Source of the DNA: Desulfovibrio sp. ZJ369
GTDB taxonomy: Bacteria; Desulfobacterota; Desulfovibrionia; Desulfovibrionales; Desulfovibrionaceae
Length of the DNA: 64,000 bases
Reading direction: 5' to 3'
Assembly (NCBI RefSeq): GCF_011039085.1
Contig: NZ_JAAKEI010000001.1
Span: 62,001 to 126,000 of the forward strand
The notes beneath the pieces were generated by a model that worked only from the letters and a program-made list of their open reading frames with translations, ran no database searches and was not told the DNA's origin. Position numbers and translations under genes: made by a program. Shown piece after piece: positions 2,158-36,025 of this stretch (the stretch's first letter is position 1; every line of letters starts with the position of its first letter).

Positions 2158-3384
2158 TCAATTCAGTGTGCGCAAGCGGCGGATGGCTTCTTCCGTATCT
2201 TCCGGCGAGCCAAAGGCCGTGAGGCGCACATAGCCTTCGCCGCTAAGCCCGAAACCCGCGCCCGGCGTGCAGACCAGGGCGGCCTGATGCAGGAGGCGAT
2301 CAAAAAAGCCCCAAGAATCCATGCCGTTGGGCACGCCGACCCAGATATACGGGGCATTGACGCCGCCAAAGACCTCCAGGCCCATTTCCTTCACAGCGGC
2401 GCTGAGCAGGGCGGCGTTGCTCTGGTAGCCCCTGATCACGCCCATGATTTCTTCCCGGCCCTTCTCGCTGTAGGCAGCGGCCGCGGCGCGCTGCACAATA
2501 TAGGCGCAACCGTTGTATTTTGTGCTTTGGCGGCGGTTCCAGAGCGCGTTCAGGCTGGCCGCGCCGCCCTTGCCGTCGCTGATCCGCAGGGCTTTGGGCA
2601 CCACGGTGTAGGCGCAGCGCAGGCCGGTAAAGCCGGCTGTTTTGGAAAAACTGCGAAATTCCACGGCCACTTCCTGCGCGCCGTCCAGCTCGTAAATGCT
2701 GTGCGGCACATCCGGGTCGCGGATAAAGGCTTCATAGGCGGAGTCATAAAGAATGACGCAGCCCTCGCGCCGGGCGTAGTCCACCCAGCCTTGCAGGGCC
2801 GCGCGCGAAAGCACTGTGCCCGTGGGATTGTTGGGGTAGCAGAGATAGATCATATCCGGCCGGGTTTTGGGAAAGTCCGGCACAAAGTCATTGGCTTTGA
2901 CGCAGGGCAGATACACAATCCTGCTCCACTGCCCGTTGGCCATGTCCCCGGCGCGGCCCGCCATGACGTTGGAATCCACATAGACCGGATACACCGGGTC
3001 GGTCACGGCCACCACGCTGTCCGGGGCGAAGAGTTCCTGAAAATTGCCCACATCGGACTTGGCCCCGTCGCTGACGAAAATTTCATCCGGGCTCAGATCC
3101 ACGCCGCGCGCCTTGTAATCGTACTCCATGATCAGATCGCGCAGAAAGGCATAGCCCTGCTCCGGGCCGTAGCCGTGAAAGCGGGCGGGGTCGCCCATGT
3201 CGTCCACGCCTTTGTGCAGGGCCTGAATCACGGCCGGAACCAGCGGGCGGGTCACGTCGCCGATGCCCAGGCTGATCACCCGGGCGTCGGGGTTGCGGTC
3301 TTTAAAATCCGCCACCTTGCGCGCAATGTCCGAAAAAAGGTAATTGCTTTGCAGCTTGAGAAAATCGGGGTTGATTGCAGCCAT
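2158..3384 (-). CDS. dapL: LL-diaminopimelate aminotransferase
   Basis: This PLP enzyme converts tetrahydrodipicolinate directly to LL-diaminopimelate, bypassing the succinylase or acetylase steps of lysine and peptidoglycan precursor synthesis. The 408-residue length fits the family. Visible motifs are the PNNPTG substrate loop near residue 184, the YDSAYE aspartate/tyrosine pair near 213, and [12 protein letters not shown] with the Schiff-base Lys near 248. The gene lies 17 bases downstream of dapF on the same strand, so the two probably form an operon for the last two DAP steps. The start has a GAGGGAT ribosome site upstream. Use of the DapL route is typical of Desulfovibrio and other anaerobes. 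Confidence 0.95.
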
Positions 3385-3401
3385 ATATCCCTCAATGGTT
3401 T

Positions 3402-4271
3402 TCAGATGAAATACACGCCTTCAAAAACAGTTGTTGCGCCGCCGGTCATGTAGACGTGATCGTCGCTTTTGTCCCAGTCGATATGCAGCACGCCGCCCCT
3501 GAGCTCCACATCCGGCGAACGGCCGGTATAACCGTTGAGCGCGCAGGCCACCGCCGCGGCGCAGGCTCCGGTGCCGCAGGCTAGGGTTTCCCCTGCCCCG
3601 CGCTCCCAGACGCGCATGCGGATTCTGGTGGAAGAAAGCACTTCCACAAATTCCGTATTGGTGCGCTGGGGAAACAGGGGGTGATGCTCAAAAAGCGGGC
3701 CCAGCTTCGGAAGATCCAGATCGTCTATGCCCTGCATGAAGACCACGGCGTGCGGGTTGCCCATGGACACGGCGGTAATCGCATAGGTGGTCCCGCCCAC
3801 TTCCACGGGTCGGGAGATAAAGCGCTGCGCGTCCTCGCCCGCAGCGGGCGCGGACGAAAGCCGCAGGGGAATGCGCTCCGGCGCGAGCACGGGCTCGCCC
3901 ATGTCCACGGTGGCGCCGCAGACCTGGCCCGCCTCGAAGAGCAGGCGCACGATCTTGATGCCCGCGGCTGTTTCCAGCCGGATGACATCTTTTTTGACGA
4001 TGCCGTGATCGTGCGCGAATTTGCCCACGCAGCGGGTGGCGTTGCCGCACATTTCCGCTTCCGAGCCGTCGGCGTTGAACATGCGCATGCGCACGTCGGC
4101 CGTGGCCGAGGGCAGGATCAGCACCAGGCCGTCGGAACCCACGCCAAAATGGCGGTCGCTGATCCGCGCGGCAAGCTCATGGGGATTGTCCACGCGCTCT
4201 TCAAAACCGTTGATGTACACATAATCGTTGCCGATGCCCTGCATCTTGGTAAAACGCACTCCCGCGCTCAT
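3402..4271 (-). CDS. dapF: Diaminopimelate epimerase
   Basis: This cofactor-free racemase interconverts LL- and meso-diaminopimelate, supplying lysine and the peptidoglycan cross-link residue. It is 289 residues long. The two catalytic cysteines are visible: Cys75 in [10 protein letters not shown] and Cys232 in [10 protein letters not shown]. The start at 4271 follows an AAGGAGCTGTC ribosome site. It is first in the dapF-dapL pair. Nothing unusual is seen. Confidence 0.96.
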
Positions 4272-30433: not shown

Positions 30434-31129
<696 letters not shown>

Positions 31130-31130
31130 G

Positions 31131-31583
31131 ATGGGCGCCAACCTGGGCAACGGCAATAAATTCGTCTCGGAAATCAACGTCACGCCCTTTGTGGACGTGA
31201 TGCTGGTGCTTTTGATCATCTTTATGGTGGCCACGCCCATGATGAGCCAGGGGCTGGATGTGGATCTGCCCCAGACCAAACAGGTGGAAGTGCTGCCCAC
31301 CGAGAATGACCATATGATCCTGACCGTGCGTCGCGACGGCAGGATTTTTCTGGATGAATATGCCGTGGACGACATGGACGAGCTGGAAGGCCACCTGCAA
31401 CGCCTGGTCAAGGAAAAAAACAAAAGCCTTTTCCTGCGGGCCGACAAGGAAGTTCCTTACGGCATTGTGGTTGAGGTCATGGGCCATATCAAGGCCGTGG
31501 GCATTGAAAAGCTGGGCGTGGTGGCCGAACAGCCCGAAGACGTCCCCGGCGGCAGGCGCGCTCCCGGCGCGTCCTCGAAGTAG
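31131..31583 (+). CDS. tolR: TolR, ExbD-family subunit of Tol-Pal
   Basis: The 150-residue protein has a short cytoplasmic N-terminus and one membrane helix carrying the essential Asp (NVTPFVDVMLVLLIIFMV). A periplasmic domain follows. It pairs with TolQ. The C-terminal tail (DVPGGRRAPGASSK) is not conserved. Confidence 0.94.
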   Translation: MGANLGNGNKFVSEINVTPFVDVMLVLLIIFMVATPMMSQGLDVDLPQTKQVEVLPTENDHMILTVRRDGRIFLDEYAVDDMDELEGHLQRLVKEKNKSLFLRADKEVPYGIVVEVMGHIKAVGIEKLGVVAEQPEDVPGGRRAPGASSK

Positions 31584-31589
31584 GTTTAC

Positions 31590-32549
31590 ATGCGCCTGGC
31601 TTCCTATGTTCTTTCCCTCTGCCTGCATCTGGCGGCTTTTTTGCTGATCTGGTTCTGGCCCGCCAGCCCGCCGATCAGGCTTGACAGCATGCCGGTAATG
31701 ATCAGCCTGGTAGAGGGCGCGCCCGGCGGCAACCGGACGCCCTCCCCGATTCTGGGGCACATGGGCGAACCCGGCGACGGGCCTCTGGCCCCCACGCCGC
31801 CTGCGCCCAAAAACGAAATCGCCGCGCGCGCGCGGGAAGAAGTCAAGGAACCGGCGCCCCTGCCCGCTCCCCCCAGGGAAGCTACGCCGATCAAGCGGCC
31901 CGAACCTTTGAAGGAACCCAAAAAACCGGCGCCCGTCAAAGAACAGGCCACCCCCATTGCGCAGAAAAAAGAGGAAAAGCCCCAGACGGAAAAGCCGAAA
32001 AAGGAAGAAAAAAAGCCTGCCGAAAAGCCGAAAAAGCAGGAAAAGAAAGCAGAGCCGAAAAAAGAAAGCCCGAAAAAGCAGGCTCCCAAAGAGGATCCTG
32101 TAGCCGCCGCCCTGAAGCAGGCCCGGCGCAAGGCTTCTTCGCGCGCGGATTCCGGCGACCGGGGCAATGCCATTGAGCAGGCCCTGGCCCAGGCCCAGCG
32201 CCAGGCCGGCGGCAACCGCGGCGGAGGCGGCGGCGAAGGCGACGGGCCGGGCGGAGGCGGGCTGAACAACCTGTATATGGGCGAGGTTATGCTGGCCGTG
32301 CGCCCCAACTGGAGCTTCAATTCCGCGCAACGGGTCAATCTGAGCTGCGTGGTCAAGGTCCGGGTGGACATGCAGGGCAACGTGCAGCAAGCGGAAGTCA
32401 GCCAGAGTTCGGGCAACGCCTTGTTTGACGCTTCGGCAGTGAACTCCGTGCTGAGCACCAGCCGCGCAGGGGAGTTCCCGCCGCCGCCCTCGCCCGAATA
32501 CACGGATCTGGATCTGATCTTCAGATATGAAGAACTTATGGCGCGCTAG
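31590..32549 (+). CDS. tolA: TolA-like protein with TonB-type C-terminal domain
   Basis: One N-terminal membrane helix (YVLSLCLHLAAFLLIWFW) is followed by a long Lys/Pro/Glu-rich rod (KKEEKPQTEKPKKEEKKPAE, residues 80-180). A Gly-rich hinge and a C-terminal domain at about 235-319 follow (VNLSCVVKVRVDMQGNVQQAEV, FDASAVNSVL, FPPPPSPEY). It spans the periplasm to couple TolQR to TolB/Pal. The 319-residue length and position fit TolA. Confidence 0.9.
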   Translation: MRLASYVLSLCLHLAAFLLIWFWPASPPIRLDSMPVMISLVEGAPGGNRTPSPILGHMGEPGDGPLAPTPPAPKNEIAARAREEVKEPAPLPAPPREATPIKRPEPLKEPKKPAPVKEQATPIAQKKEEKPQTEKPKKEEKKPAEKPKKQEKKAEPKKESPKKQAPKEDPVAAALKQARRKASSRADSGDRGNAIEQALAQAQRQAGGNRGGGGGEGDGPGGGGLNNLYMGEVMLAVRPNWSFNSAQRVNLSCVVKVRVDMQGNVQQAEVSQSSGNALFDASAVNSVLSTSRAGEFPPPPSPEYTDLDLIFRYEELMAR

Positions 32550-32563
32550 CCCGCAAGGAGGCC

Positions 32564-32746
32564 ATGCCGTTTCCGCTGCGCGCATGTTTTTTGATCCCGC
32601 TGGCCGCCCTGCTGTGCATGGCCGTCCGGCTTCCGGCCCAGGCCGTGAGGCGCGCCTGCGACGCGGGGCAGTTCCCGCCTCCGCCGTCATCCGGGTATAC
32701 GGAACCGGAGCTGGTGTTCACGTCGGACGAAACCGTGAAAGGCTGA
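32564..32746 (+). pseudogene. 60-codon remnant: signal peptide joined to a TolA-like tail
   Basis: The ORF starts MPFPLRACFLIPLAALL, very like the next gene's MSFPLRAGALILLGALI. It then passes directly to AGQFPPPPSSGYTEPELVF, which matches the end of TolA (AGEFPPPPSPEYTDLDLIF). An AAGGAGGCC ribosome site precedes it. The simplest reading is a paralogue with signal peptide and TonB-like domain that lost its middle, leaving only both ends. It could still be translated. Confidence 0.6.
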
Positions 32747-32796
32747 AGCAAGGTCACACTTTCACGCGCCTCGTCGCCCATAAGGAGAACAATGCT

Positions 32797-33714
32797 ATGT
32801 CATTTCCGTTGCGCGCGGGCGCGCTGATCCTGCTGGGGGCTTTGATCTTCACCCCGGGCCCTGCGTCTGGCGCGGCTTTGGCCGCGGCGGACCAGAACGA
32901 CGGCTATTCCGGCAAAGTGCTTGACAAGGTGCTCGCGGTCTGGGCCCCGCCGCCCGCGCTCAAAGGCGAATTTGAAGTCAGAGTGCGCATTTCCCTGGAC
33001 GGCCAGGGCAAGGTGCTGGCCTGCACGCCGACCAGGACATCGGGCATGGAGGCTCTGGACAGCTCCGCCTGCGGGGCGGTGCGCCAGATCGCCGGTTTCG
33101 GCACGCCGCCGTACGGCATGCCCCTGGATGTGCATCTGGCTTTCTGGACCGGCATGCCCAGGGGCAAGGATTCCGCTGCCAGGCCTGCCGCCAGCGCCGC
33201 GCGCCCCGGCACAGCGAAAACCGGAGTGAGCGACGAGAGCGCGGCCACAGTACCGATCAAGGATTCTCAAAAGAAAAGCGCGGCCAAAGCCGTTGCCGCC
33301 GGAACGAAAAAGCCCGCGGCATCGCAGAAGCCCTCCCCCACGGGCCTGACCGATGAAGAAATGCGGCTGACCCTGAGCGCGCCGGAACCCGCGGCCCAGG
33401 GGCGGCCCGTGCAGCCCAAGGCGCAGGACAAGTACGATCCGCGCTACCGCAAATATCTTTCCCGTGTGGTCTGGGATCTGCGCAAGGCCATGTTTATCCC
33501 GGCGGAAACCGCGCCCGGCACCTATTACGCCACTGTGCGGCTGTTGCTGGAGCCCACAGGGGCGATCAAAGACGCCACGCTGCTGGAAAGCAGCGGGGAT
33601 AAACGGCTTGACAGGTTCGTGCTGCAGGGCATACGCCGGGCAAACAGAGTGTCGCCCCCCCCCGCGGGCCTCGGCACCACCCTGGAACTCACCTTTACAC
33701 TGGTGCGCCACTAG
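32797..33714 (+). CDS. Periplasmic protein with two TonB-C-like domains
   Basis: A signal peptide (1-27, ending ASGAALA) is followed by a first TonB-C-like domain near residues 35-115 (FEVRVRISLDGQGKVLACTPTRTSG, ALDSSACGAVRQI). An Ala/Lys/Pro linker follows, then a second at about 215-305 (YRKYLSRVVWDLRKAMFIPAE, GTYYATVRLLLEPTGAIKDA, LDRFVLQGIRRA). There is no membrane anchor like TolA. It sits between tolA and tolB in the operon, so a Tol-Pal accessory role is likely. The AAGGAG site precedes ATG 32797. Confidence 0.75.
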   Translation: MSFPLRAGALILLGALIFTPGPASGAALAAADQNDGYSGKVLDKVLAVWAPPPALKGEFEVRVRISLDGQGKVLACTPTRTSGMEALDSSACGAVRQIAGFGTPPYGMPLDVHLAFWTGMPRGKDSAARPAASAARPGTAKTGVSDESAATVPIKDSQKKSAAKAVAAGTKKPAASQKPSPTGLTDEEMRLTLSAPEPAAQGRPVQPKAQDKYDPRYRKYLSRVVWDLRKAMFIPAETAPGTYYATVRLLLEPTGAIKDATLLESSGDKRLDRFVLQGIRRANRVSPPPAGLGTTLELTFTLVRH

Positions 33715-33746: not shown

Positions 33747-35066
33747 ATGAAAAAATACTTCCTTCTCCTGGCCATCGGGCTCTGGCTGGCTCTGGGCGGA
33801 GCGGCCCAGGCAGCCATGCGCGTGGACATCATCGGTCCGGGCCAGAATATCGTCAATCTGTCCCTGGCCGCCCCGCTTACGGCTCCCCAGGTTCAGGCCA
33901 CGGGCATGGGCGCGGCATTGCAAAAACTGATCGAGCAGAATTTGAGTTTTTTGCCTTTCATGCGCCTTACGGACCCCAAAGCCGTGCTGGGCGGCATCGT
34001 GCTGGCGGGCTACGAGCCGCCTGCCCTGGATTTCAAGCGCTTCCAGCTGGCCGGCTCGGACATTGTGGTCACCACCTTCTGGCCTGACGGCGACAAGGGC
34101 ACAAGGCCCGTCCAGATCCGCGCCTTTGAGACCAACACCGGCAGCCGTCTGTTCGGCAAGGAATATCCCAAAGTCGCCACCCGCGACCTGCCCGAAGTGG
34201 CGGATCGCTTTTGCGCGGATCTGCTGGAAGCCCTGACCGGCAACGGGGCCTTTTTCCGCTCCACCCTGGCCTTTGTAAAAAAGGTCGGCAAGCTGAGCGC
34301 CAATGTCTGGCTGGTCAAGCCCACCGGACGGGATCTGCGCCAGATCACCAATATGCCGGGCGAAGCCATGTCCCCGGCCTGGTCGCCGGACGGACGCTTT
34401 GTGGTCTTTACCCACATCGATCCCAAATCCCATGCCCTGGGCGTCTGGGATCGCACATCGGGCAAGGTGCAGCGCATCCGCTTTCCGGGCAATGTGGTCA
34501 TCGGCCCGGCCTTCATGCCGGACAACAAGGTTGCCGTGGCGCTTTCCAACGGCAAATACCCGGTGATCTTCCTGCTCAACCACGTTTTTCAGAAGGAACG
34601 CATTCTGGAACAGAGCAATGCGATCAACGTCTCGCCCACCTTTGACAGCACCGGAACCAGGATGGCTTTCACCTCCTCCCGCATGGGCGGCCCGCAGATC
34701 TTCCTCAAGGATCTGAGCAGCGGCGCGGTGACCAGAGTGAGCAAGAACGGCACATACAACACCGAGGCCAACCTCTCCCCGGACGGCACGCTGGTGGTCT
34801 ACAGCCGGATGACCGATTTCGGGCACCGCATCTTCGTGCAGGATATGCTGACCGGCATTGAGCGCCAGATAACCTTTGGCCCGGGCAGCGACGAGCAGCC
34901 TTCCTTCTGCGCGGACAGCTACTTCATCGCCTTTTCCTCCACCCGCGGGGGCGGCCGCGGCATCTACCTGACCACCCGGCACGGCGGCGACGCCAAAAAA
35001 GTGCCCACCGGAAGCGGCCCGGCATCCTTCCCGCGCTGGGGCATGCCGGTGAACGCCTCCAAATAG
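33747..35066 (+). CDS. tolB: TolB, periplasmic beta-propeller of Tol-Pal
   Basis: A signal peptide (MKKYFLLLAIGLWLALGGAAQA) is followed by an N-terminal domain. A WD40-like propeller comes next, with repeated motifs SPAWSPDGRFVVFTH, SPTFDSTGTRMAFTSSR and EANLSPDGTLVVYSR. The 439 residues match TolB. It bridges TolA and Pal. The TAG stop is the first three bases of the repeat that follows. An upstream TTG (33726) in frame is unlikely. Confidence 0.94.
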   Translation: MKKYFLLLAIGLWLALGGAAQAAMRVDIIGPGQNIVNLSLAAPLTAPQVQATGMGAALQKLIEQNLSFLPFMRLTDPKAVLGGIVLAGYEPPALDFKRFQLAGSDIVVTTFWPDGDKGTRPVQIRAFETNTGSRLFGKEYPKVATRDLPEVADRFCADLLEALTGNGAFFRSTLAFVKKVGKLSANVWLVKPTGRDLRQITNMPGEAMSPAWSPDGRFVVFTHIDPKSHALGVWDRTSGKVQRIRFPGNVVIGPAFMPDNKVAVALSNGKYPVIFLLNHVFQKERILEQSNAINVSPTFDSTGTRMAFTSSRMGGPQIFLKDLSSGAVTRVSKNGTYNTEANLSPDGTLVVYSRMTDFGHRIFVQDMLTGIERQITFGPGSDEQPSFCADSYFIAFSSTRGGGRGIYLTTRHGGDAKKVPTGSGPASFPRWGMPVNASK

Positions 35067-35205
35067 AACATTTTGCTTTTGAAATTATTCAATTTCAAAA
35101 GCGGCGCTGCCATCATTTCGCGTCCAGAACGCGGTCTGGACGCTCATTCGGCGCGGGCGTCCGCTCCCGCGGCCGCCAGAGCAATTTCAAAGTGAAATTG
35201 CTCTA
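35064..35205. repeat. TAGAGC-family repeat after tolB
   Basis: 142 bp from TAGAAC to GCTCTA. It carries the GCTTTTGAAATTATTCAATT arm, the CATCATTTCGCGTCCAGA, ACGCGG, TCTGGACGC hairpin, GGCGCGGGCG, and ends with the alternative hairpin AGAGCAATTTCA, AAG, TGAAATTGCTCT. It supplies the tolB stop codon (AAA TAG AAC). Confidence 0.78.
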
Positions 35206-35557: not shown

Positions 35558-36025
35558 ATGAAACGTTATGCTCTTCTTCTCGCCTTAGTTCTGGCCCTGG
35601 CCGCCGGTTTCGGCTGCGCCAAGAAGACCACCGCCGAACCCGGCTATGACGATGGCCTTACGCCCGAAATGCGCGCCGCCATCCAGCAGATTACCGACGC
35701 CCGCGTCTATTTCGCTTTTGACAAGTTCAACATTGATCCCCAGTACAAGGAAATGTTGAAGGCCAAAGCCGACTTGATGAAGCAGTACCCCAGCATCCGC
35801 GTGCGCATTGAAGGCAACTGCGACGAACGCGGCACCCAGGAATACAACCTGGCCCTCGGCGAACGCCGCGCCCGCGCCGCCTACGAATACATGGTCATGC
35901 TGGGCGTGAACCCCAACCAGCTTGAAATGCTCAGCTACGGCAAGGAAAATCCGGCCGTGCAGGGCAATAACGAGGCTGCCTGGGCCAAGAACCGCCGCGA
36001 CGACTTCCGCGTGATCGCCCACTAG
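35558..36025 (+). CDS. pal: Peptidoglycan-associated lipoprotein Pal
   Basis: A lipoprotein signal peptide ends at Cys20 (AAGFGCAKK). The OmpA-C domain binds peptidoglycan: VYFAFDKFNIDP, IEGNCDERGTQEYNLALGERRA and NRRDDFRVIA, with the Asp/Arg pair in place. At 155 residues it is normal. It tethers the outer membrane to the wall and is the outer end of the Tol system. GGAGGACACC precedes the ATG. Confidence 0.95.
   Translation: MKRYALLLALVLALAAGFGCAKKTTAEPGYDDGLTPEMRAAIQQITDARVYFAFDKFNIDPQYKEMLKAKADLMKQYPSIRVRIEGNCDERGTQEYNLALGERRARAAYEYMVMLGVNPNQLEMLSYGKENPAVQGNNEAAWAKNRRDDFRVIAH

Follow-up and report, generated by a model that had tools for sequence, protein, structure and literature searches.

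A reading frame of 60 codons between tolA and the next gene of a Desulfovibrio tol operon is, with a probability of about 0.8, the remnant of a gene for a stand-alone secreted TolA C-terminal domain that has collapsed in frame. The frame is a fragment of a domain and not a domain; no Pfam or NCBIfam family matched the 60-residue protein at E-values up to 1. It was found in a window of 64,000 nucleotides, the whole stretch of DNA that was analysed, which belongs to an assembly (G000, contig C18) of 2.88 Mb in 108 contigs. The operon in the window lies entirely on the plus strand and reads tolQ-tolR-tolA, the 60-codon frame, a gene with two TonB-C domains (here the double gene), tolB and a pal-like gene. 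Its features are as follows.

30434–31129, plus strand: tolQ (TIGR02796 tolQ, 220.0 bits; cut-off 221)
31131–31583, plus strand: tolR (reading frame and position; start by eye)
31590–32549, plus strand: tolA, with membrane anchor, variable linker and TonB-C/TolA domain III (PF13103, 48.6 bits; matches Pseudomonas aeruginosa TolA, 6s3w/1lr0)
32446–32534, plus strand: 3' stretch of tolA with homology to the 60-codon frame's tail (repeat D2; 63 of 89 positions, exceeding 500 shuffles)
32564–32746, plus strand: 60-codon frame, probable collapsed remnant of a chimeric gene for a signal peptide and TolA C-terminal domain (sequence comparison)
32550–32642, plus strand: 5' block of the probable remnant, with ribosome-binding site and signal peptide; homology to the start of the double gene (48 of 69 positions with 32777–32851, above 500 shuffles)
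32797–33714, plus strand: double gene, secreted protein with two TonB-C domains (Pfam, NCBIfam, AlphaFold)
32899–33147, plus strand: TonB-C domain 1 of the double gene, with the invariant cysteines C76 and C92 (HMM match; invariant columns)
33451–33702, plus strand: TonB-C domain 2 of the double gene (HMM match; AlphaFold)
33747–35066, plus strand: tolB (TIGR02800, 308 bits; cut-off 343; PD40 repeats)
35558–36025, plus strand: pal-like gene for an OmpA-type lipoprotein (reading frame and position)

Against the equivalog model TIGR02794 the TolA of the window scored 54.6 bits (cut-off 59.45); its domain and its position in the operon are consistent with TolA. Between tolB and pal a palindrome of 27 nucleotides, AGAGCAATTTCAAAGTGAAATTGCTCT, is present at 35178–35204. 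It occurs at 67 genomic places with at most two mismatches, versus 0 for the reversed control, and is a REP-like dispersed repeat.

Two parents of the 60-codon frame

The frame was cut at 32642/32643 and its 5' and 3' pieces were compared separately with the neighbouring genes, with 500 shuffles as the null. The 5' piece (32550–32642) matched the start of the double gene with a score of 20.5 (shuffle maximum 16), whereas its score with tolA was 12, below the 99% level of the null (14), and thus no match. For the 3' piece (32643–32746) the parent was the other neighbour: it scored 37 with tolA, against a shuffle maximum of 17, which rules out a chance resemblance of the tail, and 11 with the double gene, which is no match. 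The initial annotation, in which a signal peptide like that of the next gene is joined to a tail like that of TolA, was thereby borne out, as both matches exceeded all shuffles, and the motifs it had set side by side (FPPPPSSGY in the frame, FPPPPSPEY in TolA) are as it stated. The 5' homology with the double gene was reached by none of 1000 shuffles at the DNA level, whereas the score of a tolB control was reached by 49 of 1000. At the protein level the signal-peptide stretch scored 44 with the double gene of its own genome, the top value among the starts of 58 double genes (median 21); with the start of its own TolB the score was 20. The homology is modest, with 58% identity in register. The frame has a plausible signal peptide, ending in LPAQA, and a strong Shine-Dalgarno sequence that is, however, just 2 nucleotides away from the ATG.

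The double gene starts at ATG 32797 and encodes 305 amino acids. It had previously been placed at 32527–33714, but the 395-residue frame that opens at 32527 is a mechanical one whose first codons still belong to tolA. Pfam (TonB_2), NCBIfam (tonB_Cterm) and AlphaFold agree on the two domains. PF13103 and PF03544 (TonB_2/TonB_C) scored 73.6 bits (cut-off 22) and 46.5 bits (cut-off 24.6), and each of the Pfam and NCBIfam models matched two stretches; the AlphaFold model has two TonB-C folds at residues 37–117 and 209–304, with a pLDDT mostly above 90 and a disordered linker between them, and its best PDB match was TolA domain III (1lr0, E = 1.3e-4). An HMM scan of the same-genus loci recognized two domains in 55 of 67, one in five and none in seven. 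Domains 1 and 2 branch separately, each on its own branch across the groups g1, g16 and g19 and apart from TolA. Since they do so, the double gene is older than the intermediate genes described below, and encodes a distinct secreted protein. Across 26 orthologues W49, G71, C76, S82, C92 and A94 of domain 1 are invariant, and C76 and C92 perhaps form a disulphide. From the position of the gene it may be guessed that the protein is a periplasmic partner of the Tol system. No intact double gene was found at four loci from genomes of 1.4–1.6 Mb (G008, G035, G002 and G078; L088, L092, L100 and L166), and at four others (G015, G029, G074 and G077; L117, L118, L162 and L165) only its first domain was recognizable, in a frame of about 440–620 amino acids.

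The intermediate gene in same-genus relatives

The interval between tolA and tolB was searched for in 79 genomes of the same genus, and 67 spacers, that of the window included, could be measured; the other 12 genomes gave no tol match or had tolA and the next gene on separate pieces. The spacers were translated in three frames and aligned to both intact intermediates, with 60 dinucleotide shuffles per spacer as a control. A gene or remnant was detected in seven of the 67 spacers: two intact, four decayed (one of them weak) and the collapsed frame of the window. The intact gene of G055 encodes 135 amino acids and lies between tolA and the double gene; that of G070, at the same place, encodes 149 and is more divergent. 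Broken copies were seen in G054 (score 179, control maximum 49), G016 (165 and 56), G028 (121 and 54) and G058 (63 and 47). The last is weak, as about one of 67 spacers is expected to exceed 60 shuffles by chance. The spacer of the window scored 99 against 43. The spacer of G035 was likewise above its control (55 against 42), and was left out of the seven because the piece was read as a remnant of the second domain of the double gene. Among the remaining 59 spacers, 58 were at or below their controls and one (G056, 18 nucleotides) was too short for the comparison. A palindrome related to that downstream of tolB in the window seems to lie within the decayed copy of G016 (L074).

Full-length intermediates, which the initial annotation had proposed to look for, are thus present in relatives, and the 60-codon form was found in none of the 66 other same-genus spacers, so that the short frame is not a conserved feature of a group that lacks longer versions. 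In a tree of tolQ and tolB the carriers are in two places. Clade A comprises the genome of the window, G055 and G028, with gene or remnant, and G024, G076, G006, G037 and G065, which are without; in G024, the sister of G028, the spacer is down to 145 nucleotides. Clade B comprises G058, G054, G016 and G070, with gene or remnant, and G020 without. The domains of the intermediates group with TolA C-terminal domains in the domain tree, apart from those of the double gene. As judged by eye, the intact intermediates have a signal peptide or a lipobox followed directly by linker and domain III, with no transmembrane anchor or motor contact.

The G055 gene has the composition of a clean chimera, in which the signal peptide of the double gene precedes the linker and C-terminal domain of TolA. 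Its positions 2965–3078 matched the double gene (3390–3514) at 81 of 114 aligned positions, with a 5' score that none of 1000 shuffles reached, and 3074–3382 matched tolA (2640–2948) at 254 of 309. At their junction, past the signal peptide and inside the glycine-rich linker of tolA, the two blocks overlap by 5 nucleotides. Because its signal peptide comes from the double gene, the intermediate of clade A cannot be called a simple paralogue of tolA or of the double gene. Since the homology blocks abut, a single tandem duplication of about 435 nucleotides that began in the tolA linker and ended shortly beyond the signal-peptide codons of the double gene could have created the gene. It would have placed the ribosome-binding site and signal peptide of the double gene before the linker and domain III of TolA and left both parents whole. 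The second step, in which the gene stayed intact in G055 and decayed in G028, is established. A similar gene with a putative lipoprotein signal is intact in the second clade (G070) and decayed in G016 and G054.

In G055 the middle 135 nucleotides of the copy are about 95% identical to its own tolA and include an identical run of 65 nucleotides, while toward both ends the identity is only 57–70%. As the longest identical run in the same stretch of tolA between G055 and G028 is 26 nucleotides, it is likely that gene conversion has homogenized the copy with its own tolA. The gene of G070 begins like that of a lipoprotein (LLLTSC, by eye), and its 5' end does not resemble that of its own double gene (score reached by 265 of 1000 shuffles). 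For this reason clade B may represent a separate birth. A single origin of both clades was considered as well, and 'SARNA' and 'RTD', which are common to both, speak for it; the unlike 5' ends and the interleaving of the two clades speak against it.

Probable in-frame collapse in the window

When the frame of the window was laid on the G055 protein, the signal peptide ending in AQA was followed immediately by residue 102. This indicates that about 76 codons were lost in frame between the end of the signal peptide and helix 2, a third step that is established by the comparison. The junction was read by eye from protein alignments; a multiple alignment proved too gapped to place it. The expected length fits (60 + 76 = 136, against 135 in G055). 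In the AlphaFold model of the intact protein a helix (residues 36–56), two strands (68–75 and 81–89), a second helix (93–109) and a last strand (122–128) follow each other. Placed on this model, the remnant retains half of helix 2, the last strand and the tail, whereas the first helix and the first two strands are absent. Without them it cannot form the TonB-C fold, and it is most likely a dead remnant. Its GC3 is normal (0.82), and no sign of relaxed constraint was found in the tail, which differs from the G055 intermediate by nine synonymous and 15 non-synonymous codon differences, compared with six and 12 between the two TolA tails. Because the frame is open, with a strong Shine-Dalgarno sequence, normal GC3 and an unrelaxed tail, the collapse is possibly recent, or some late or weak residual translation may have persisted.

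The same two parents would be expected if the frame had been born short, by a duplication that ended inside the last helix of tolA and fused the signal peptide directly to the TolA tail, so that a full-length gene never existed. The DNA of the tail is about equidistant from both candidates (33 of 102 differences to the G055 intermediate, 30 of 93 to its own tolA) and hence no closer to the intermediate, as a short birth would have it. However, the close relative G055 has, at the same place, a chimera of full length whose signal peptide is the same, and AV[KR]R and FTSDE are common to the frame and the G055 intermediate and absent from their TolAs. The protein is also 59% identical to this intermediate versus 45% to its own TolA, and in the domain tree the tail clusters with the G028 remnant (support 0.80, on few residues). 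A short birth is therefore unlikely.

Improbable to a somewhat greater degree is a working small secreted peptide that has kept the last strand of TolA, to which the N-terminus of TolB adds in TolAIII of P. aeruginosa, and that modulates the Tol system. Strand augmentation is the binding mode described for TolB and TolAIII in PMC7391070, and the open frame with its ribosome-binding site, LPAQA signal peptide and unrelaxed tail would suit such a role. Against it are the restriction of the form to the window among the same-genus spacers, the loss of the fold and the short distance between Shine-Dalgarno sequence and start codon. An artefact, in which the draft of 108 contigs dropped a repeat-like segment of a longer gene resembling the neighbouring tolA, is very improbable, as the tail differs from its own tolA at about one third of the positions, which should keep reads from collapsing, as the loss preserves the frame, and as decay occurred independently in other genomes. 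The in-frame collapse of a full-length chimera thus remains the preferred account of the frame.

Stand-alone TolA domains in the family and their possible role

Outside the genus 87 loci of the family were scanned with an HMM for TonB-C domains near tolB. One domain was found in 63 loci, two in ten, three in three, four in one and none in ten. In seven lineages (G171, G142, G195, G162, G121, G185 and G119) an extra domain was closest to its own TolA or to the TolA clade of its own genus. For G195 the support is only 0.48, and the identity is 78% to its own TolA versus 60% to the next; in G119 two extra TolA-like copies were placed beside their own TolA. Judged by eye, every extra gene opens with a signal peptide or, in G171 and G195, with a lipobox. 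Beyond the genus, seven or more further lineages thus appear to carry stand-alone secreted or lipidated copies of this kind. Sampled sister species have TolA alone in six of these genera: g55 (two species), g53 (two), g34 (three), g42 (three), g51 (two) and g32 (three). G117 and G156 have one older extra domain in common, and the second domain of G103 is distant from TolA. Such genes have been made several times independently in the family and often lost again. The earlier proposal that TonB-C domains in the interval from tolA to tolB were repeatedly duplicated and deleted is accordingly supported by the 67 spacers of the genus and the 87 loci of the family. In the open-licence PMC literature that was searched, no description was found of duplicated TolA domains that stand as separate genes in a tol operon.

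One tandem-duplication recipe for all lineages was not supported. The 5' ends of the extra genes in G119, G185 and G121 are weakly or not like those of the next gene, with scores reached by 4–9, 7 and 87 of 1000 shuffles, respectively, and for this reason it is only for clade A that the signal peptide is claimed to have been captured from the next gene. Two kinds of arrangement were also observed. Three stand-alone TonB-C genes follow tolA in G119 (L195:2896–4299), two of which are tandem copies of the TolA domain that hardly differ from each other. Outside the tol operon, G051 (contig C2; L172:1836–2321, minus strand), G061 and G062 have a TonB-C gene that stands alone and is lipoprotein-like; the G051-type gene (LLILSCARN, frame of 161 amino acids) shows 27–30% identity with the G055 intermediate along almost the entire length.

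The N-terminus of TolB binds TolA domain III with a Kd of about 40–200 µM, according to PMC7391070, and phage g3p and colicin N are described as binding the same face of the domain as TolB (PMC4339652). A fusion of a signal sequence to TolAIII has been used in Escherichia coli as a laboratory construct that helps to release periplasmic protein (Levengood-Freyermuth 1993; Wan and Baneyx 1998, as cited in PMC6195910), although leakage was also seen there without the TolAIII fusion at high expression. The intact genes would export domain III without the anchor that is driven by TolQR. Such a free domain could occupy the periplasmic partners of TolA, above all the N-terminus of TolB, without pulling; it would compete with TolA and be costly when not useful. 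As the intact genes share the architecture of the fusion, we infer by analogy that they encode a free competitor of TolA. Their role may lie in regulation, in defence or in nothing at all. A wider reading is unlikely. It holds that TolA C-terminal domains which are exported on their own form a recurrent convergent device, produced by repeated tandem duplication in the tol operon, each time with a newly gained signal peptide or lipobox, subject to gene conversion and soon lost. Their use would be that of a natural decoy or inhibitor of TolA, for example in defence against filamentous phages and bacteriocins whose docking site is domain III; the region between tolA and tolB would be the record of an arms race and the frame of the window a spent decoy.

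What was an oddity of one genome has become the traced life cycle of a gene, with a probable one-step birth that joined the export signal of a neighbour to the tip domain of TolA, persistence with likely gene conversion, and frameshift decay or collapse in frame. This raises the question why a free TolA domain has repeatedly been released into the periplasm, given that its export is used in E. coli to render the outer membrane leaky. Caution is called for as well, as small TonB-C reading frames in tol operons may be remnants.

Among known systems, TolA domain III (1lr0, 6s3w) resembles the intact intermediates in fold and sequence and gave the best hits of the G055 model, whereas the intermediates are separate genes with their own signal peptide or lipobox and are without the membrane anchor and motor-contact segment of TolA. 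The E. coli fusion has the same architecture as the G055 gene, an export signal followed by TolA domain III, but it was made in the laboratory, while the natural genes probably go back to duplications within the operon. A further periplasmic protein with a C-terminal domain like that of TolA and TonB and no membrane anchor is VreA of P. aeruginosa, described in PMC2729926. It differs in having a signalling domain of cell-surface-signalling receptors, in lying outside tol-pal and in not being a recent copy of TolA. Finally, duplication of TonB-C domains has been described before and was likewise a source of new envelope proteins, but that duplication is ancient, and the conserved order of the tol-pal genes was stressed there.
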